Source of the DNA: an uncultured Erysipelotrichaceae bacterium | Lineage (GTDB): Bacteria; Bacillota_I; Bacilli_A; RFN20; CAG-826 | Reading direction: 5' to 3' | Assembly (NCBI GenBank): GCA_902802355.1 | Contig: CADCLU010000008.1 | Coordinates: 1-48,557, forward strand | Length of the DNA stretch: 48,557 bases | In this document: positions 2,248 to 41,309 of the stretch, in pieces | Numbering within the stretch: position 1 is the stretch's first letter | Layout of the letters: each line of letters starts with the position of its first letter | Made by a program: the position numbers and the translations under genes | The notes under the pieces: generated by a model | What the model saw: the letters and a program-made list of their open reading frames with translations, nothing else | Told to the model about the DNA's origin: nothing | Databases searched by the model: none

Positions 2248-2276
2248 CTGAAAAAATAGTAAATCGCCACTATATA
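2248..2276 (+). promoter_or_regulatory. Candidate promoter of small membrane peptide gene
   Basis: CTGAAA (2248-2253, 4 of 6 to TTGACA) and TATATA (2271-2276) are 17 bases apart. A dyad GCCACT/AGTGGC (about 2266-2285) spans the -10. A transcript from here would carry a roughly 70-base leader before the 29-codon frame. Confidence 0.4.
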
Positions 2277-2315
2277 TAAAGTGGCAAAGCAAAGCCATTA
2301 AAACTCGGAACGGGC

Positions 2316-2346
2316 CCTCGCAATCTCAGCACAGAAAGCGAGGTGA
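2316..2346 (+). promoter_or_regulatory. Leader hairpin that would occlude the ribosome binding site
   Basis: CCTCGC (2316-2321) is perfectly complementary to GCGAGG (2338-2343), which overlaps the AGGTGA Shine-Dalgarno (2341-2346) of the frame at 2353. Folding would hide the ribosome binding site. This arrangement is known from type I toxin mRNAs; that it works this way here is inference. Confidence 0.45.
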
Positions 2347-2352
2347 TGTCCA

Positions 2353-2442
2353 ATGAAAGACCTTCAAAAAGAAGACGCAAGCCTTCTTAAGATCGCTCTG
2401 ATTTGTCTCTTATTATCCTTATTGGCCTGGCTAGTAAAATAA
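2353..2442 (+). CDS. 29-residue single-pass membrane peptide, candidate type I toxin
   Basis: The frame starts with ATG at 2353, seven bases after AGGTGA, and ends TAA. The peptide has a charged N-terminus (MKDLQKEDASLLK) followed by about 14 hydrophobic residues (IALICLLLSLLAWL) and a terminal Lys. That is the shape of Fst/Ldr/TisB-type toxic peptides: short, one membrane helix, no enzyme domain. The surroundings support this: the ribosome binding site sits in a hairpin, a consensus minus-strand promoter lies just downstream pointing into the gene, and repeated AAAAGAGCC(T)CTCC motifs follow. No sequence family was recognised, so function is inferred from size and architecture only. It could be a harmless small membrane protein or a chance frame. 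Confidence 0.5.
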   Translation: MKDLQKEDASLLKIALICLLLSLLAWLVK

Positions 2443-2469
2443 AAAGAGCCTCTCCGTTCTTATGGTCTT

Positions 2470-2497
2470 ATTATAACTCGAATTTTTACAAAGTGAA
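2470..2497 (-). promoter_or_regulatory. Minus-strand promoter, candidate antisense RNA
   Basis: Read on the minus strand, TTCACT (4 of 6) and a perfect TATAAT are separated by 16 bases. A transcript would start near 2463 and run leftward across the small peptide gene ending at 2442. No minus-strand coding frame of note follows, so an antisense RNA is the likely product if it is active. Confidence 0.45.
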
Positions 2498-2526
2498 TAT
2501 GCCTGATATGAGCGACTTATAGTAAT

Positions 2527-2579
2527 TAAAAGAGCCCTCCTAAGCCACAACCATAAAGTGTTTTGTGAGGACTCTTTTA
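2527..2579. terminator. Long bidirectional hairpin between small peptide locus and cls
   Basis: TAAAAGAG (2527-2534) pairs with CTCTTTTA (2572-2579) and pairing continues inward with CCTC/GAGG and CACAA/TTGTG. U-rich flanks on both strands fit a shared terminator for cls (minus) and for plus-strand transcripts. The left arm repeats the AAAAGAGCCTCTCC found at about 2441-2455. Confidence 0.6.
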
Positions 2580-2622
2580 TATTATAGCCAGCATCTAAAT
2601 ATTTGGCAACAATGTAAGGAAG

Positions 2623-4363: not shown

Positions 4364-5440
4364 ATGAAAAAAACATTGACCCTATCTACTTTGCTTTTGG
4401 CTCTTGCTTTAGCAGGCTGCGACAAACCAGCTCCAGCCGCATCAAGCGTGCCCGTAGTGGAAGAGGATCCGCTTAAAGTCCAGGTCATCGTCATGTCTGG
4501 CCAGTCCAACATGGAAGGAAGCACCTATTACGACAATGGCCAAGGCTGGCTTAGAAAGGCCTGCGAAGAGCTCGTCGAAGAAGGACATGATCCTATCGAC
4601 GCCGACATCTTCTTCGATGGCATGCCTGACATCCAGTGCTCATACCGTGGATATTATCCATATGGCGGTGGCGACCCAGCCGCTAACGCGCACGCTTCCA
4701 ATACCGCCGATAAGATGGCCGGCAAGTTCCTCAACCTTAAGGTTGGCATGGGACAGAAAGACGTCGCCATGGGGCCGGAGATCGGCTTAGGAAACGTTCT
4801 CCATACCAACGAAATCGGAACAGAAGAAAAACCTGTTTATCTCATTAAGAGCGCATTCTCTGGCTCTTCCTTCAAAATCCAAAACGGCTCCAAGAAACAC
4901 TGGAAAGTCGCTGATGATAACAATGGCGAAGAAGGCGAGCTTTGGACCGAGACCAAGCAGTTCGTCCACAATAACCTCAAATTAATCGAAGATGCCGGCT
5001 TCCATCCAGAGATCAAAGCCTGGCTCTGGCACCAAGGCGAGTCCGATAGTGATAACAACGAGATGGCTGGCGAAGAACAGTATGGCGTCTATATGCGTCA
5101 CCTCCTTGGAGAATTCAGAGAAGAGTTCGCTGATTATGCCCCAGAGGAAGATGGCGACAACATCGCCTTCGTCGACTGCACCATCTATGATGGAACCCGT
5201 ATCACCTATACCGGTGTCGACACACTTAACGCCACTAAGAAAGCCATCGCTGAGGAAAGCGAGAATAACTACATCATCAATGCCTCAACCAAAGACAATG
5301 AAGGCTTAGGCTTAGAGATTGGTGGCGATCAGAATCTCGGTGGTTGCTATGATCGATTTCACTACGTCACCAAAGATTTGTTTAGACTCGGTGAAGCCTA
5401 TGGCAACATTCTCATCGATAACGACATCATCGAACATTAA
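4364..5440 (+). CDS. SASA-type esterase lipoprotein 2
   Basis: A 358-residue lipoprotein (lipobox LAGC at residues 16-19) paralogous to the gene at 1111. The SASA landmarks are VIVMSGQSNMEGS with the nucleophile Ser, MGPEIGLGNVL, WLWHQGESDS and a C-terminal DRFHYVTKDL with the likely catalytic His. Probable role: removing O-acetyl groups from sialic acids or plant polysaccharides outside the membrane. The start has AAGAGG ten bases upstream. A cre box precedes it and esterase 3 follows nine bases after its stop, so the two form an operon. The tandem copies with different inserts between motifs suggest duplication and specialisation on different acetylated sugars; that is inference. Confidence 0.85.
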   Translation: MKKTLTLSTLLLALALAGCDKPAPAASSVPVVEEDPLKVQVIVMSGQSNMEGSTYYDNGQGWLRKACEELVEEGHDPIDADIFFDGMPDIQCSYRGYYPYGGGDPAANAHASNTADKMAGKFLNLKVGMGQKDVAMGPEIGLGNVLHTNEIGTEEKPVYLIKSAFSGSSFKIQNGSKKHWKVADDNNGEEGELWTETKQFVHNNLKLIEDAGFHPEIKAWLWHQGESDSDNNEMAGEEQYGVYMRHLLGEFREEFADYAPEEDGDNIAFVDCTIYDGTRITYTGVDTLNATKKAIAEESENNYIINASTKDNEGLGLEIGGDQNLGGCYDRFHYVTKDLFRLGEAYGNILIDNDIIEH

Positions 5441-5449
5441 GGTGAAACC

Positions 5450-6508
5450 ATGAAGAAAAGATTATTAGTTACTTCCCTCTTGCTCTCTTTGGGGCTTGCT
5501 TCTTGTAACGATGCTCCGAAAGCATCCTCAACTCCAGTGGAAGAAGGGCCAAAGAAAGCCCAAGTCATCGTCATGTCTGGCCAATCCAACATGGAAGGCA
5601 GCACCCTTTGGGGCGAAAAAGGACATGGTCACGATGATGACGACAATTGGTTAGAGAAAGCATTCGAAGAGCTTGGCACTCAGTATGACGCCGCCGACTA
5701 TATCGAAGGCAACGTCCCAGAGATCCAGATGTCTTTCCGTTGCTTCTACCCATATGAGAATCCAATCAAGGTGAATGCCTCCAATATGGAAGATCCCCTT
5801 GCCGGTGAGTTCAAGAACCTCCAGGTCGGCATGGCCAACCAGACAAGGTTCATCGGACCTGAGATTGGCCTAGCCAATATCCTCAGAGAAAAAGCCTCCG
5901 AAGAGACTCCGATCTTCTTCATCAAGAGTGCTTACGGTGGTTCTTCCTTAGGCGACCAGTACGGCGCTAACTCAGAGTACATCTGGAGAACCAAAGAAGA
6001 TGGCAACGGTACCGAAGGCAAGCTTTGGACCGAAACCAAAGAGTTCGTCCACAATAACCTCGAGTTAATTGAGGAACTAGGCTTCGAGCCAGAGATCAAA
6101 GCGTGGCTTTGGCACCAAGGCGAATCCGATGGCAATAACGCCAACTACGGCACTCAGATGAGACATCTTATCTCCGAGTTCAGAAGCGAGTTCGCTCCAA
6201 ATGCGGTGGATGAGGATGGCGAGAACATCGCCTTCGTCGACTGCACCATCTATGATGGCGGACGTATCGGCTACAACGCCGAAAAGGAAGGCGGCCTCAA
6301 CGACATGAAGAAATCCATCGCCGCTGAAGCTGATAACAATTACATCATCAACGCGTCCTTCATCGACGAGGGCGGATTAAAGCTCCAGATCGGTGGCAAC
6401 AGCGACCTCGATGGCGGTTTCAACAAATATCATTACATCACCAAAGACTGCATCCGTTTGGGTGAGGCCTATGGCAATATCTTGGTGGATAACAACATCA
6501 TCGAATAA
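5450..6508 (+). CDS. SASA-type esterase lipoprotein 3
   Basis: A 352-residue lipoprotein (lipobox LASC) with the same layout as esterase 2: MSGQSNMEGS near residue 45, IGPEIGLANIL, KAWLWHQGESDG, and a C-terminal NKYHYITKDC with the likely catalytic His. It is the second gene of the operon: AAGGTG lies just before the ATG and the gap to the previous stop is nine bases. The three copies in the window are closest in the WLWHQGESD block and the C-terminal GEAYGNILVDN segment. Expression presumably follows the cre-controlled promoter upstream of 4364. Family assignment is firm; substrate is unknown. Confidence 0.85.
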   Translation: MKKRLLVTSLLLSLGLASCNDAPKASSTPVEEGPKKAQVIVMSGQSNMEGSTLWGEKGHGHDDDDNWLEKAFEELGTQYDAADYIEGNVPEIQMSFRCFYPYENPIKVNASNMEDPLAGEFKNLQVGMANQTRFIGPEIGLANILREKASEETPIFFIKSAYGGSSLGDQYGANSEYIWRTKEDGNGTEGKLWTETKEFVHNNLELIEELGFEPEIKAWLWHQGESDGNNANYGTQMRHLISEFRSEFAPNAVDEDGENIAFVDCTIYDGGRIGYNAEKEGGLNDMKKSIAAEADNNYIINASFIDEGGLKLQIGGNSDLDGGFNKYHYITKDCIRLGEAYGNILVDNNIIE

Positions 6509-32749: not shown

Positions 32750-33052
32750 ATGGCGAGCAAAGGCCAAAAGTTTAAAAAGTATTCCAATGATTTAAAGCAA
32801 GCCATACTTCGTGAATATTTTGAAAATGGAGCTGATACTTCTTCTCTTGGCAAACGGTATGGCATACCAAGAGAATCCATCAAAAACTGGATTACAAAAG
32901 CTAAGCGTAATATCGACGTTGAAGTCGATCATCGCAAGGGCGGATCCGGGAGACAGAAATCGAAGAATCTGACATTGGAGGACTACAAGGAAAGGTATGA
33001 GATCCTAAAAAAATACCAGGCCTTCTTACAAGCACGACGAGGGAAAAAGTGA
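32750..33052 (+). CDS. IS3-family OrfA (DNA-binding, helix-turn-helix)
   Basis: A 100-residue protein with a transposase-type helix-turn-helix (FKKYSNDLKQAILREYFENG, then SSLGKRYGIPRESIKNWI) that should bind the IS ends, and a charged C-terminal helix for dimerisation. AGGAGG lies nine bases before the ATG inside the left-end hairpin. The gene ends GGG AAA AAG TGA, overlapping orfB. The AAAAAG run before the stop is a plausible -1 slippage site for an OrfAB fusion. Confidence 0.92.
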   Translation: MASKGQKFKKYSNDLKQAILREYFENGADTSSLGKRYGIPRESIKNWITKAKRNIDVEVDHRKGGSGRQKSKNLTLEDYKERYEILKKYQAFLQARRGKK

Positions 33053-33855
33053 CGTTCATAACCATCCATATAAACGAATACAAACTATCCAACCTATGCG
33101 CGGCTTTGGCGGTATCCCGCAGGACTTACTACAGGTATCGCGATCAAGAGGATCCCGATTATTATGAGTATCTGCTCATCAAAGATATCTTCGACGAAAG
33201 CAAAGGCACGTATGGGTATCGTAGGATTGAAGAAGGCCTCAAGATTAAATATGGTGTAATTTTTAATCACAAGAAGGTAGCGAGGGTCATGAGGAAATAC
33301 AACCTCAAGCCCGAATACATCAGAAGAATAAGACCGAACACAAGCGCGAAGCGTTTGGAAGAGAACGTCCAGCCGAATCTGGTCAAAAGGCGATTCAGGA
33401 CCAAAGGCCTCAACCGGATATGGTGCACGGATGTCACTTATCTGATATTCGGGAACAAGCGAGCATATCTATCAACAATCATCGATTTATACGATCGTCA
33501 TGTTGTGGCGTATGCCATATCCAAAAGAAACGACATTGAATTGGTAATCGATACCCTAAACAAAGCTTTGGAAACAGAAAAAGATGTGCATGGACTCATC
33601 ATTCACAGTGACCAGGGTTTCCAATACACATCCAATGAATACAAAGCCATCTGTGCCTCCAAAGGCATTGCCATCTCAATGAGCAGAAAGGGCACACCTA
33701 TCGACGACTCTCCGATGGAGAGCTGGCACGGGATCCTCAAAAAGGAGACTTTGTACAACAATAATATCGCATCTCTGGAGCATTACATTCAACTGATAGA
33801 GGAATGGATTGCCTTCTATAACTCAACGAGACTAAAAAACAGGAACCTTAATTGA
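33049..33855 (+). CDS. IS3-family OrfB transposase (DDE integrase core)
   Basis: A 268-residue rve-type integrase. The HTH_21-like N-terminal part includes SKGTYGYRRIEEGLK. The DDE residues sit in WCTDVTYL, IHSDQGFQY and PMESWHG. It lies in the -1 frame relative to orfA; translation occurs from the GTG that overlaps the orfA stop (GTGA) or by frameshifting at AAAAAG. The C-terminus (FYNSTRLKNRNLN) is shorter than in most OrfB proteins, which continue with a GLSPxEYR-type end. A hairpin CAGGAA/TTCCTG (33840-33861) covers the stop codon and may terminate transcription. Confidence 0.93.
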   Translation: MTFITIHINEYKLSNLCAALAVSRRTYYRYRDQEDPDYYEYLLIKDIFDESKGTYGYRRIEEGLKIKYGVIFNHKKVARVMRKYNLKPEYIRRIRPNTSAKRLEENVQPNLVKRRFRTKGLNRIWCTDVTYLIFGNKRAYLSTIIDLYDRHVVAYAISKRNDIELVIDTLNKALETEKDVHGLIIHSDQGFQYTSNEYKAICASKGIAISMSRKGTPIDDSPMESWHGILKKETLYNNNIASLEHYIQLIEEWIAFYNSTRLKNRNLN

Positions 33856-33940: not shown

Positions 33941-35020
33941 TTAGGCCAAGACGCTGAATGCGTAAGTGGTCCTCGAATGGAACTGTTCGTTGGCCCTAAG
34001 GATGGTGGTTCCATAATCATTCCATTCTGGATGGTTGATCATGTCTGGGAACATCTGGGTCTCTAAGCAGATATTGCCTGAGCCATCGCGGTAGAGCTGA
34101 AGTCCCGCTCTATCGGTATAGACATCGACCTTAACACCTAATTCAGTGCCAGTGAGAGTGGAAACCTTTCTGTATCCGGTTCCATTGAGGACGTAGTTGT
34201 CGTCATAGGACTCGCTGTTGCTGAAGGCTTTTTCTGTCGTGTAGTCAAATTTGGTTCCGCTTACTGGGGAGATAGCGCCGGTAGGAATCTGATTGGAAAG
34301 AGGGGTGTAGTTGGCCGCATCGATCCAAAGTTTGTGATTCGCGTCTCTAGAATTGCCATTCAATGACATGAACAAGTGGTTGGTTGGGCTATAGAGGGTA
34401 TCGGCATCGCTTGTGGCGGTGTAATCGATTGTGAGCTCACCGGCATTGGTAAGGGTGTATTTTACGGTGGCGTCTAAGTTTCCTGGGTAGCCGTTGTCGT
34501 TAGCTGCGCTATGGAGCGAATAGGTGATGGTGGAAGCGGTCTGCCCGACTTTGGTCCAGTTCGCCGTGGCGAAAGGTCATTGCCAGGAAGATCCGCCGCC
34601 ATGGAGGGAATGCTGACCGGAGTTCTTGGTGACATTGTATTCGGTGCCGTTAAGAGTGAACTTGCCGTTGGCGATTCTGTTGGCGACACGACCGACGGTG
34701 AACCCGTCTTTTGCGATCTGCTTATTGCCTGAGCCGTAGGTTATCTTGTCGATTCTAGCGCCCTGGGCTTTGAATTTGACGACGAAACCGCTGTCGGTAT
34801 AGAGTTCGTTCTCCCTCATCGTTCTGCCTGCATCAAGGCTATCGTCGGCGACGCTGCTTTCTTCGGCAGGAAGGGAGCTTTCCTCAGCAGGGGTCGAGCT
34901 ATCAACCGGGAGAGACGCATCAATCTCCGTAGAAGCGGCGGGTTCGCCGAAGCATGGGGTTTGGCAGCTTGCCAAAAGAGCGGCGAAAGCGAGCACAAAG
35001 ATTTTCTTGTTCATTTTCAT
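33941..35020 (-). pseudogene. galM: Aldose 1-epimerase (galactose mutarotase) lipoprotein, interrupted by in-frame UGA
   Basis: From the ATG at 35020 (AAGGAAAA 8 bases upstream) one frame of 359 codons encodes a lipoprotein (lipobox LASC) with a Ser/Glu-rich stalk and a full GalM domain: VGRVANRIANGKF, GQHSLHGG, TNHLFMSLNG and CLETQMFPDMINHPEW, ILRANEQF. The catalytic His and Glu positions are all present. Codon 148 (34577-34579) is TGA, splitting it into 147 and 211 codons in the same frame with no frameshift. A perfect dyad (34561-34574) starts two bases after the UGA. A recent nonsense mutation is the simplest reading; read-through or a sequencing error is possible. The enzyme would interconvert alpha and beta sugars outside the cell. 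Confidence 0.85.
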
Positions 35021-35076
35021 AAAGTGTATTTTCCTTGCCATTACTTTCACACTTCCGAAGGAAAGTTGCAAGGGAA

Positions 35077-35113
35077 GGAAAAAGAAAAACAAGTAAGTTG
35101 TTGCTTACTTGTT
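35077..35113 (-). terminator. Terminator of typA, overlapping its stop codon
   Basis: On the minus strand AACAAGTAAG pairs with CTTACTTGTT in a perfect 10-bp stem, then TTTCTTTTT follows. The stop codon of typA lies in the left arm. Confidence 0.85.
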
Positions 35114-37074: not shown

Positions 37075-40000
37075 TTAGAGCGAGATCGAGACGGTGTAGG
37101 ACTTCGCAGTGTTGGTGCTGGTCATGGTGGTTAAGGCCTTGGACCAATCGGTGTAGGCAGAGACTCTGAAGTAGTAGGTCGTGCCAGCGGTGCAAGCATA
37201 GGTGAAGGTTTCGCCATCTCCGCCGTAACCATCGTCAGCGCTGGTAAGTGGGTTGCCCTGGAAGCCGGTAGCATTGAAGTTAGCGGCGTACAGACCGATC
37301 TTGAAGTCGACTCCATCAAGGGCATCGGCACTGAAGGTGTAGGTACCATCGGCAGTTGGAGTGAACTTGATGATGACAGAACCGTTGCCGGTTGGGTTGA
37401 AGGTGCCGCTGTTGGCGCCATCCCAAGTACCGGCTAAGAGGTTAGTCACAGTCGAAGTGGTTTCAACTTCGTAGGTGCCTTCGCCAAGGGTGTAGGTCTT
37501 TTCAGTCGCCGTGACGGTTAAGTCGTCGGCATTGAATTCGCTGGACTTGGCGGTGTAGACGGTCTTATCGGCATTTGGAGTTCCGGTGAATGGTTGACCA
37601 TTAAGGGAAGCACCCATGTAGATTCCTTCAAGGCTCTTCTTATCGAAGTCGCCCTCTGGACCGGTGTAGATGTCGTGGTCTGGAGTGAGATAGGTGAAGG
37701 CGACGGTTTCGGTCTTGCCAGCATAGCTGGAAGTTCCGGCTTCGCCGATAACCTTATCTTTGTCCCAGTAGTTGCCAGCTTTGATGATATAGGTGTGGCC
37801 AGCGGTGACAGCAAGCTTGGTGATCTTGCCACCTCCGCTTAAGGTAGCGCTGCTATCGTCGTAGGCAAGACGGCCATCGGCAACAGAGGTTGATGATTTG
37901 AAGGCGGTAGCAGTGCTCTCGAAGACCTGGATGTAACCATCGGAAGAGGTAGAAACGGTCTCCTCAACGGTGATGTAGCCATCTTCGGTAGCAGTGAATT
38001 TGCCCCAGAGGTTACCATCGGCTCCGACGGCTCCGGTGAAGGAAGTATCGGCGGCTTCGATAGTGTGGAATAAGTGGGTCTCCTCGGTTTCGGTAACGGC
38101 TTCGTAGGTCATGGCACCATTATCTAAGAAGTAGGTGGTGCTGGTCATCGTAGCAGTTGGATCGAGAGGATCGCTGGCGTTGATGTTGGACACGGTTCCT
38201 GGGACGGTTAAGGACTTGCCATTGGCGGAAAGGGTTCCGTTGGTGATGGCGGCGGTTCCTAATGTCGCAGTGTAGAGCTTACCTTCAACGGTCTGGACAG
38301 TGAGGTCGGCTCCGGTGTCGCTGGTGTAAACGTTGGTGACAATGGCTTTGAAGCTGAAGGAGAAGCTCTCAGCGTTTCCATCAAAAGTGGAAGAGGTATC
38401 GCCAACTAAGGTGTCTCTGTCTTTCCAAGCGCCAGCTTTGATGATGTAGGTGGTTCCGGCAGTGACTTTGAGGTCGGTGATCTTGCCAGCCCCGCTTAAA
38501 TCGGCGCCACTATCGGCGTAGGCAAGACGGCCATTGGCCTGAGAGGTGCTGGTAGTGTAGGCGGTAGCGGTGCTGGTGAAGATCTGGACATAACCATCGG
38601 AAGAGGTTGAGACAAGCTCTTCAACGGTGATGAGACCATCGCTTGGAGCGGTGAAGGAAGCCCAGAGGTTACCATCGCCGATAACGTTTCCGCTAAGACC
38701 GGTGGAATCGGCATCAAGAACGTGGTAGAAGTGCTCGCTGCCAGGCTGGGAAGCCTTGGTGTAGGTGTTGTTGACCGTATCGAGAGTGTAAACCTCGTCG
38801 GTGCTGGTCAAGAGTGGATCGTTAGGATCGGTCATATCAAGGGTTTGAGCGCCGGTGATAGACAAGGTGCCGTTGGTGGCATCGTAGGTGGCGTTGCCTT
38901 CGATTGGTTCGCCATCGAGGTAGGCAGCTTTGAAGGCGCCATCTTTGGTCGCGATGGTGAGTTCGCCATCAGCGCCAGTGTAGCTTTCCATGAGGTAATC
39001 GACGTAGGAGAAGGTGAATGATTCATCGATGCCGATGTAGGAAGAAGTGGTAACTGTGTCTCCTGGTAAGGTATCTTGGCCAGAGTATACGCCTTGTTTG
39101 ATGATGTAGGTGACGCCGGCACGGACGGTGACGGTGGCTTTAGCAACGCCGTTATATTTGGAGACATAAGCAAGTCTCTTCGCACCGGTTGAGGTGAGAC
39201 CCTGAAGTCCGGTCGCTGGATCATATTCGAAGACCTGGAGGTAGACGGTGTTTGAGGTGGTTGTTGTGCCGCCAATGGTGATGCTGCCACTCGCGGTTGG
39301 AGTGAAGGAACACCAGATGTTGCCGTCATTAGCAGTCAAGCCGGTATAAGAGGTATCGGTCTCAGAGAGAGCGTGGAATGGGTGTGTATCAACCGGTGTG
39401 GAAACGATTGTGTAGGTGTGGTTGGCTGCATCGATGGTGATCGTGTTGGTGGTGGTTGTCATGACAACGTCGGCAGGATTGGAGGCATCGAGAGTCATCG
39501 CAACGGTGGTGATGGTGGTGCCGGCGGCATTCATGGTGTAATCCTCAAGTTTTGTTCCGTTGAGAGAAACAGACATGACGGTTGAACCGCTCTTCTTGAG
39601 ATCGAGGTCACCAGCATCGCCAGTGTAGATATCGTGTGTGAAAGCGGTGAAGGTCCAATCAAACTCTTCAGCGCAATCCGCATGAGTGGAGCTCGTTGCG
39701 TTGTAATTCAAGCTCTTATCGTGCCAGTCGCAAAGTCTAATAATGTATGCGTGTCCAGCTTCAACGGTGACGGTGCAATGGACGCCTGTAGCGGTTGAAT
39801 AGTTGTTATCGTCATAAGCAAGCGCAGCGCCATCTTGTGTGTAGTTTTCCGCGGTAGCGTCGAAGATCTGGAGATAAGAATCTGAAACGGTTCCGTATGT
39901 CTCAAGGACATCAAGGGTACCGTCTTCAGTGGCAACATAGACTACCCAAATGGCGCCAGAGCCGTCTGTATCGGCGTTGTAAGTACCGGAAGTGCCAGTA

Positions 40001-41133
40001 AGCGTTTCCTCAAAGAGAGGAACCTTAATTGTGCCTACGCCTTCGGTATAGGTCTGCGCGATCTTAGCAAGGGTGTAGGTGATGGTTGGAGTGACAATCA
40101 TTGGGCCTTGTGGGTCGGTCTTATCGATTCCAGTTGGCGCGCTTCCGCTTGGGACGGAGAGGACGTTGCCATCATCAGATAAGGTCGCGCCAGGAAGTGC
40201 GACGCCATTGAGGGTGGCAAAGACTAAGCCATCGTTATCGGTGCCAATCGTAAGGGTGCCATGACCATCGGTGCCAGGAGCGGCAGTGTAGTCGGTCGCG
40301 GTGAAGTTGGTCTGTGCGATCGTCGCGAAGGATGTGGCAGTGACAGCGCCAACAGTGACCTTCCAAGAAGATTTGTTAGCTCCGGTGCCGTAATCAAAAA
40401 TAGCTCCACCGGCATTGATGTTCGTACCAGCCTGCATAGTGATGGTGACGTTGAACGCATAGGTTCCACCAATGCAAGCGAAGTATTTCCAATGTCCAGC
40501 AGAAACTTCGATTCCGCCGAAGAAGTTCTCTTCATCGTCGGTTTCGCAGAACGCGATGGTCGCGCTGCCTAAAGCAGCTTTGTCCATGACATAATAGTCA
40601 TTAGAGGTTTTGTCGTGTAAGACATAAGCCATGGTGCCGTCGGTGATTACTTCGACATAGTCCTCATCGGCGACCGTAGAGGCAGACTGGATCTTATAGA
40701 GTCCTCCGCCCATGTCAGTATAAGTAGCAGCGAATTTATCAGTGGATGTTCCCCAACTGGTGGTCTTATCAGAGTTGATGATAAGGTTGTTCATGCCGCC
40801 TTTATACTCACCGATGAAGCTCTTCTGACTCCAATCGGTCTCAACAGCAGGTGTGCTGCTTGAAGAAGCCGCAGCAGAAGATGAAGCTGCAGCAGAAGAT
40901 GATGCAGTACTAGTTCCAGCAGCAGATGTTCCAGCAGCGGATGTTCCCGCAGCGGAAGTGCCGGCCTCACTAGTACCAGTAGGGGCAGAAGTTTCATCTG
41001 CACTGGTCTGGACTGCTGTGTCAGATGAGCCAGTCGCAGGGGTAGATGAAGAATCTCCGCCTTTTCCGCATCCCGCTAATACCATTGCCGCAAAAGCACT
41101 GAGAAGCAAGATGCTGCCTGTAGATTTTTTCAT
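37075..41133 (-). CDS. Giant 1352-residue repeat lipoprotein
   Basis: A surface lipoprotein (lipobox LAGC near residue 21) with a stalk of GTSAAGTSAAGTS and SSAAASS repeats (residues 25-85). An N-terminal region of about 250 residues is followed by four homologous units of about 217 residues. Each unit starts with a PPC-like beta-sandwich (DGNLWxxFTAxxDGxITVEE, SDGYxQxFxSTAT, LAYxD, TAGxTYIIKAG) and ends with a shorter beta domain carrying a YTGxxGDL-type motif. A last PPC-like domain (LLAGTWDGANSGTFNP) closes the protein. No catalytic motif was found; PPC-like domains bind or assist in secreted proteins, so an adhesin or glycan-binding role is likely. AAAGGAGGGT precedes the ATG and a strong promoter lies at 41168. 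It is divergent from the next lipoprotein gene. Confidence 0.85.
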   Translation of the reverse strand: MKKSTGSILLLSAFAAMVLAGCGKGGDSSSTPATGSSDTAVQTSADETSAPTGTSEAGTSAAGTSAAGTSAAGTSTASSSAAASSSAAASSSSTPAVETDWSQKSFIGEYKGGMNNLIINSDKTTSWGTSTDKFAATYTDMGGGLYKIQSASTVADEDYVEVITDGTMAYVLHDKTSNDYYVMDKAALGSATIAFCETDDEENFFGGIEVSAGHWKYFACIGGTYAFNVTITMQAGTNINAGGAIFDYGTGANKSSWKVTVGAVTATSFATIAQTNFTATDYTAAPGTDGHGTLTIGTDNDGLVFATLNGVALPGATLSDDGNVLSVPSGSAPTGIDKTDPQGPMIVTPTITYTLAKIAQTYTEGVGTIKVPLFEETLTGTSGTYNADTDGSGAIWVVYVATEDGTLDVLETYGTVSDSYLQIFDATAENYTQDGAALAYDDNNYSTATGVHCTVTVEAGHAYIIRLCDWHDKSLNYNATSSTHADCAEEFDWTFTAFTHDIYTGDAGDLDLKKSGSTVMSVSLNGTKLEDYTMNAAGTTITTVAMTLDASNPADVVMTTTTNTITIDAANHTYTIVSTPVDTHPFHALSETDTSYTGLTANDGNIWCSFTPTASGSITIGGTTTTSNTVYLQVFEYDPATGLQGLTSTGAKRLAYVSKYNGVAKATVTVRAGVTYIIKQGVYSGQDTLPGDTVTTSSYIGIDESFTFSYVDYLMESYTGADGELTIATKDGAFKAAYLDGEPIEGNATYDATNGTLSITGAQTLDMTDPNDPLLTSTDEVYTLDTVNNTYTKASQPGSEHFYHVLDADSTGLSGNVIGDGNLWASFTAPSDGLITVEELVSTSSDGYVQIFTSTATAYTTSTSQANGRLAYADSGADLSGAGKITDLKVTAGTTYIIKAGAWKDRDTLVGDTSSTFDGNAESFSFSFKAIVTNVYTSDTGADLTVQTVEGKLYTATLGTAAITNGTLSANGKSLTVPGTVSNINASDPLDPTATMTSTTYFLDNGAMTYEAVTETEETHLFHTIEAADTSFTGAVGADGNLWGKFTATEDGYITVEETVSTSSDGYIQVFESTATAFKSSTSVADGRLAYDDSSATLSGGGKITKLAVTAGHTYIIKAGNYWDKDKVIGEAGTSSYAGKTETVAFTYLTPDHDIYTGPEGDFDKKSLEGIYMGASLNGQPFTGTPNADKTVYTAKSSEFNADDLTVTATEKTYTLGEGTYEVETTSTVTNLLAGTWDGANSGTFNPTGNGSVIIKFTPTADGTYTFSADALDGVDFKIGLYAANFNATGFQGNPLTSADDGYGGDGETFTYACTAGTTYYFRVSAYTDWSKALTTMTSTNTAKSYTVSISL
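37460..40010 (-). repeat. Four tandem units of about 650 bp in the repeat lipoprotein gene
   Basis: Homologous segments begin near 40000, 39376, 38725 and 38068. The last two are the most alike, including near-identical DNA around the SDGY(I/V)Q segment, so the array probably grew by recent duplication. Unit borders are approximate. Confidence 0.75.
40853..41000 (-). repeat. Short in-frame repeats coding for the lipoprotein stalk
   Basis: A 15-bp unit encoding AAGTS recurs at least three times, followed by Ser/Ala codon repeats. Such low-complexity stalk DNA is prone to length change. Confidence 0.6.
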
Positions 41134-41167
41134 TTTTGTGACCCTCCTTTCGTGGTCTTTTGAGGGC

Positions 41168-41195
41168 ATTATAGAAACGAACTTCACTATTTCAA
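41168..41195 (-). promoter_or_regulatory. Promoter of repeat lipoprotein gene
   Basis: On the minus strand TTGAAA (5 of 6) and a perfect TATAAT are 16 bases apart. Transcription would start about 28 bases before the ATG and include the AAAGGAGGG ribosome binding site. Confidence 0.75.
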
Positions 41196-41309
41196 CAATT
41201 AATTGCATTTTTTGCTAATTATTTTCAAAACATAAAATAATCATTTCCATTTTCGCGTTTTTGCGTAATATAGGAATAATCTCTACGGAGATTAGGAGGT
41301 TTTAGCATT

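Follow-up and report, generated by a model that had tools for sequence, protein, structure and literature searches.

A candidate family of type I toxin-antitoxin-like modules with a predicted two-helix mRNA switch in uncultured Bacilli

Does the 29-codon frame near the start of contig CADCLU010000008.1 (assembly GCA_902802355.1, from an uncultured Erysipelotrichaceae bacterium of the rumen) encode the toxin of a type I toxin-antitoxin system, a kind of module that serves bacteria in growth arrest or addiction, and if so, how would it be controlled? The whole contig of 48,557 nucleotides was analysed and is referred to here as the window. A sequence-only reading had proposed a locus on the Fst/Ldr plan, in which the mRNA hides its ribosome binding site and an opposing RNA pairs with it. 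All elements named in that reading were found at their coordinates, in a pattern far above chance. At a probability of roughly 65%, we read the locus as a member of a chromosomal family of type I toxin-antitoxin-like modules that would work through the mRNA switch proposed below. Control of the peptide by an antisense RNA is highly probable from the sequence comparisons, toxicity of the peptide is probable, and the exact direction of the switch, as modelled, falls a little short of even odds.

2353-2442, plus strand: ORF of a 29-residue single-helix peptide, putative toxin (MKDLQKEDASLLKIALICLLLSLLAWLVK)

The frame, with its one hydrophobic helix, is present as first described. Conservation in relatives, which had been proposed as a check, is borne out, as the peptide is kept at the same locus in seven other genomes of the genus, with 100% identity in four other species and 72-76% in three more. 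Its neighbours there are phospholipase D/cardiolipin synthase-like and lipoprotein genes (by eye). The ORF is conserved and under purifying selection, with a pN/pS of 0.39 family-wide and 0.15 in the window clade, where the coding constraint is therefore clear. A small hydrophobic peptide with conserved coding, as looked for in a type I toxin-antitoxin system, is present here as a 29-residue single-helix peptide, and its profile has matches in 12 genera. Seven representative peptides gave zero matches above cut-off in Pfam and NCBIfam. Around the module and its phospholipase D-like neighbour, the window holds three paralogous lipoproteins that share a GQSNMEG motif and look sialate O-acetylesterase/SGNH-like by eye (1048-2190, 4364-5440 and 5450-6508, plus strand). 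Further along on the minus strand, a galactose-mutarotase-like lipoprotein at 33941-35092 is apparently split into ORFs 34577-35092 and 33941-34375 and adjoins an IS3-like transposase pair at 32750-33855 (all by eye), and a lipoprotein of 1377 residues with long internal repeats lies at 37075-41208.

The region upstream of the frame, and one site within it, carry the following features.

2248-2276, plus strand: inferred peptide-mRNA promoter, CTGAAA (2248-2253), 17-nt spacer, TATATA (2271-2276)
2266-2285, no strand assigned: inverted repeat GCCACT..AGTGGC spanning the inferred -10; may act as an operator or as a hairpin in the RNA
2282-2346, plus strand: conserved mRNA leader (covariance model R1, E=1.9e-16, the model being built from 30 sequences with this leader among them)
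2283-2296, plus strand: 5' stem-loop GGC-AAAGCAAA-GCC, with covariation in relatives; presumed mRNA 5' end
2316-2321, plus strand: leader anti-SD (anti-Shine-Dalgarno) arm CCTCGC, with the SD arm or the mRNA 3'UTR as alternative partners; both helices covary in the same columns
2338-2343, plus strand: SD arm GCGAGG of the ribosome binding site, pairing with 2316-2321
2404-2409, plus strand: ORF codons 18-19 (TGT CTC), candidate second, weak anti-SD from RNAalifold pairing with the SD

The promoter is a weak match that was missed by the promoter scan and read from the sequence; family-wide, a TATAAT-like box lies at most 16 nt 5' of the 5' stem in 28 of 63 units, versus 13 of 63 in a control window. 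The inverted repeat is kept in eight genomes of the genus. At L031 (G026:C136), an AbiEi/AbiEii-like pair (by eye from translation, ORF from 544) has an inverted repeat around a TATATATAAA box at about 494-527 that resembles the one upstream of the peptide gene. The middle pair of the 5' stem occurs as A-U, U-A and G-C types in relatives, with 97.5-100% of sequences paired. The ribosome binding site does lie inside the hairpin at 2316-2346, as the sequence-only reading held. Rfam gave no relevant match for the window and five relatives.

A covariance search with the leader found 111 units, which occupy 56 of the 224 genomes and 13 of the 35 genera of one uncultured Bacilli family; 48 of the 56 genomes belong to genera other than that of the window. 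More than one unit is present in 21 genomes, with a maximum of eight, and the family's genomes come mostly from ruminant gut. The peptide profile search matched 12 of the 35 genera, often in tandem. Leader searches of the whole order (279 genomes) and of a class sample (395 genomes) added nothing outside the family. An exact-pattern scan of 84,980 species returned 45 stretches, all from uncultured Bacilli assemblies and with a ruminant host wherever the title names an animal, and zero copies of the pattern were found in viral contigs. Carriage by mobile elements is unsupported in these collections, as whole-unit blastn against phage and plasmid records gave short chance matches only. Weak DNA or protein matches in genomes G009, G014 and G017 were rejected because they look like chance matches within ordinary genes, and two-mismatch matches to the antisense core in other genomes of the genus were rejected for want of promoter and terminator context.

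The order of a unit is consistent: a GACAAAGnnAAGUC stem-loop, nnnAAAACUCGGAACGGAG, a CCUCRY arm, the SD arm, the start codon, a peptide of 25-30 residues and a 3'UTR complementary to the opposing RNA, followed by the -10 of the opposing RNA at near-fixed spacing. The 67 distinct units carry several peptide types (for example MKDFFKETLFLLKIALICLFLSLLALLVK, MKQFKEFKAILVLIALCLLLCLFLKLA, MKTNKEIVYAFLLGIIELVCLILELIR and MEPLKKAISLIVLCLLLCLLILIFK), which collapse into one group at 50% single-linkage identity. For short hydrophobic peptides such grouping is weak evidence of common descent, and the units are linked more strongly by the RNA scaffold that they share. Tandem runs of up to six leader units, with differing peptide types on the same scaffold, were seen at L111 (539-1835) and L072. 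Neighbouring genes are chromosomal and include (by eye) those for S15 and polynucleotide phosphorylase and for fructose-bisphosphate aldolase, as well as a gene resembling ribokinase and one for an XRE-type regulator. In the open-access papers searched, no description of this leader or peptide family was found. The suggestion of a possible new family is strongly borne out by these comparative data, with no match in Pfam, NCBIfam or Rfam, and by sequence the peptide family is widespread and previously uncatalogued.

Each unit carries a convergent gene for an opposing RNA of about 60 nt that overlaps the mRNA 3'UTR, and its promoter and terminator are conserved. Of 63 units, 60 have a -10; it stands 6-8 nt from a conserved GTTCTT in 58 and is of the extended type TGNTATAAT in 46. 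At the sequence level, the attributes of an antisense gene are all there: its own promoter, its own terminator and complementarity to the putative toxin mRNA. We infer that both RNAs are transcribed. The opposing RNA is a same-sense copy of the leader and fully complementary to the 3'UTR, with a predicted fold of a single-stranded 5' segment and a terminator hairpin. Its first bases are predicted to pair with its own loop (cognate -6.2 versus -4.0 kcal/mol; Wilcoxon p ~3e-9, uncorrected for relatedness), which suggests a pseudoknot or alternative fold.

In the window, this gene is found in two copies of unequal quality.

2470-2497, minus strand: proximal antisense RNA promoter, TTCACT-16-TATAAT (-10 at 2470-2475), found by scan and kept in relatives
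2443-2470, minus strand: proximal antisense RNA copy, decayed, without terminator stem and 3'UTR pairing segment
2527-2579, minus strand: distal antisense RNA hairpin/terminator (putative antitoxin), probably also a bidirectional terminator, supported by its fold against shuffles and by eight genomes
2581-2609, minus strand: distal antisense RNA promoter, TTGCCA-17-TATAAT, 11 of 12 consensus matches
2557-2579, plus strand: part of the 3'UTR that complements leader positions 2307-2333; the duplex, at -19.6 kcal/mol, falls short of the family mean of -30.0

The minus-strand promoter that had been described as aimed into the gene does exist, and transcription from it would enter the ORF in antisense; it belongs, however, to the decayed copy. 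The copy made up of the 2527-2579 hairpin and the promoter at 2581-2609 is intact; that promoter, the better of the two, had been overlooked and would drive transcription of the hairpin. The repeated motif AAAAGAGCC was confirmed where the ORF ends and again near 2529. The hairpin, 53 nt in length, is indeed long and stable on both strands: its folding energies are -21.8 kcal/mol (minus, z -5.0) and -16.9 kcal/mol (plus, z -4.7), and 0 of 200 shuffles match the native stability, whereas the proximal remnant folds no better than shuffles (z -0.05). Relatives carry TTG..A with TATAAT or TAAAAT at the distal promoter, and five of them retain about 30-45 further bases at the place of the proximal copy. 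Collapse of tandem repeats in short-read assembly could be an alternative cause of that gap. The genomes of the genus that share the locus hold two to three tandem minus-strand units (promoter, short RNA, terminator) 3' of the ORF, the most distal having a different promoter and lacking the 5' part of the RNA. In the G006 array (L028), a remnant of the peptide gene 3' end lies between opposing-RNA units, a layout that suggests duplication of the whole module followed by peptide loss, leaving orphan antisense genes. The window's own leader:3'UTR duplexes are weak (-12.8 kcal/mol proximal, -19.6 distal), and the cognate pairing advantage is lost in its subclade (ranks 21 and 28 of 62); on these two grounds the window copy may be a drifting, decaying member of the family.

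Two competing helices, both covarying, are present in the mRNA. Across 28 aligned units, the 5' stem together with a 20-pair leader:3'UTR helix has 96.9% of cells paired, with compensatory changes on both sides at 13 pairs, a count reached in 0 of 500 shuffles; the shuffle statistics are inflated by sequence relatedness, and the double changes nonetheless occur at many columns. Sliding the leader and 3'UTR partners lowers pairing to 30-51%. The SD hairpin, 97.6% paired, draws on the same leader columns (36-41), and the two helices are therefore mutually exclusive, which by sequence implies an RNA switch. Non-Watson-Crick pairs in the long helix are G-U in 22 cases versus A-C in 2, in addition to one G-U fixed in all 28 units, and this excess indicates selection on pairing within the mRNA, not mere likeness of leader and opposing RNA. 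Duplexes between leader and 3'UTR are also stronger for cognate than for non-cognate partners (-30.0 versus -22.9 kcal/mol). Direct blocking of the SD as the main action of the opposing RNA was set aside, since only 6 nt match the SD arm; it is also disfavored by the wobble bias and by the leader identity of about 25 nt, which includes segments outside the SD hairpin.

We favour the following explanation of how these helices are used. A short mRNA would encode the single-helix membrane peptide (the putative toxin), and a convergent RNA of about 60 nt, with its own promoter and overlapping the mRNA 3'UTR, would be the putative antitoxin. The CCUCRY leader arm could partner either the SD arm, which closes the site, or the mRNA's own 3'UTR through a helix of about 20 bp. 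In nascent mRNA, the SD would be closed by the leader arm. With the 3'UTR synthesised, that arm would be drawn off by the long-range helix, leaving the SD held weakly by codons 18-19 and allowing translation. The opposing RNA, as a same-sense leader copy, would then capture the 3'UTR and return the arm to the SD, with the resulting duplex probably cut by RNase III. We infer the direction of the second and third steps from folding: the predicted probability of an unpaired SD is 0.03 without the 3'UTR and 0.24 on average with the long-range helix forced. A tentative extension, which we hold somewhat less firmly than the direction itself, is that the antitoxin is a leader mimic competing for the 3'UTR, on one RNA chassis with exchangeable peptides.

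The same folding data bear on the opposite assignment, in which the long-range helix is an inert full-length state with the SD held by ORF codons, translation needs 3'-end processing or another trigger, and the opposing RNA removes the active form. Such storage forms are described for AapA and hok, and AapA3 combines a metastable upstream anti-SD with another hairpin that sequesters the SD and with an inert long-distance fold joining 5' and 3' parts (PMC6733600). Here, the SD is still predicted to be mostly paired in the long-range state (the mean of 24% free given above), and the RNAalifold consensus for 23 full-length mRNAs shows the long-range helix with the SD weakly paired to codons 18-19. 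The codon for Leu-19 is a near-invariant CTC (21 of 23 units, whereas CTC accounts for 6 of the 239 Leu codons elsewhere in these ORFs), which suggests an RNA-level constraint within the ORF, though codon 21 is as uniform (TTA in 22 of 22). Against this assignment, removal of the 3' segment would return the leader arm and close the SD more tightly, unlike in AapA, and we consider it unlikely.

To about the same extent, we doubt that the modules encode a benign membrane peptide under antisense control, such as a stress or transporter regulator, with no toxin involved. Their positions between housekeeping genes (S15 and polynucleotide phosphorylase) or beside fructose-bisphosphate aldolase (by eye) would suit such a role, but tandem copies with copy-specific pairing, a patchy spread over 56 of 224 genomes and the presence of several peptide types with a single RNA scaffold fit a toxin-antitoxin system better.

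Membership of Fst/Ldr itself, in which direct repeats would let the opposing RNA pair at the SD, is mostly refuted and very improbable. The type I layout of hydrophobic peptide, hidden ribosome site and opposing small RNA stands, the convergent RNAs would meet at a bidirectional hairpin, and a 6-nt CCUCNN of the opposing RNA could pair with the SD arm. The likeness does not go beyond layout: the APUU(A/V)GUU motif of the Fst/Ldr hydrophobic region (PMC3543317) is absent from all 62 distinct peptides, the seven representatives lack a Pfam or NCBIfam match, and the shared repeats are oriented wrongly for SD pairing, leaving both RNAs same-sense. Chance assembly of a short ORF, a terminator and promoter-like boxes, each ordinary alone, is refuted by conservation and covariation in 56 genomes.

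For toxin-antitoxin biology, the family would add at least 111 modules in 56 species, a large set of antisense-controlled membrane peptides in a lineage with none catalogued in the libraries searched. Its covarying natural sequences allow an RNA switch to be read directly, and the competing-helix model is directly testable. Tandem copy-specific modules, with differing peptides on one scaffold, offer a handle on how antitoxin specificity diversifies and on chromosomal multiplicity. If the leader-mimic reading is true, the antitoxin prevents formation of the long-range helix, which would otherwise detach the anti-SD arm from the ribosome binding site, and copy-specific pairing lets several independent tandem modules coexist in a genome.

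Among known systems, par/Fst likewise hides the SD in a 5' hairpin. In par/Fst of Enterococcus pAD1, convergent RNAs (RNA I and RNA II) share a terminator (PMC4147584), as they would here at the 2527-2579 hairpin, and the peptide is also of about 30 residues. The repeats here are inverted and not direct, and the antitoxin is consequently not complementary to the leader, nor to the region around the SD beyond 6 nt at most. Ldr/Rdl of E. coli forms long direct repeats of whole toxin and ~60-nt antisense units in tandem (PMC4147584), and entire units are tandemly copied here too; Rdl, however, overlaps the 5'UTR, the opposing RNA here overlaps the 3'UTR, and the peptides differ.

BsrG/SR4 and TxpA/RatA of Bacillus subtilis share a small hydrophobic peptide, a pre-sequestered SD and an opposing RNA that overlaps the 3' end of the toxin mRNA. 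Antitoxin binding at the 3'UTR tightens SD sequestration in BsrG/SR4 (PMC6562991), and the covariation and predicted folds here are consistent with such control. Their complementarity spans 100-140 bp, unlike the ~60-nt RNA here, which is a same-sense copy of a leader whose helix with the 3'UTR covaries; the peptides here matched no Pfam or NCBIfam family. AapA/IsoA of Helicobacter pylori resembles the modules in its ~30-residue peptide, its upstream anti-SD hairpin with a second SD-sequestering structure, its 5'-3' long-distance pairing and its module-specific antisense RNA (PMC6733600). The SD itself is the partner of the 3' segment in AapA, whose mRNA becomes active on trimming, whereas the 5'-3' pairing supported here by covariation involves the anti-SD arm, with the SD only weakly paired to the ORF, and the opposite effect would be expected. 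By sequence, the modules look like type I toxin-antitoxin systems distinct from the known ones compared, and the best reading, by analogy, is that they are closer in working to BsrG/SR4 and AapA/IsoA than to Fst.
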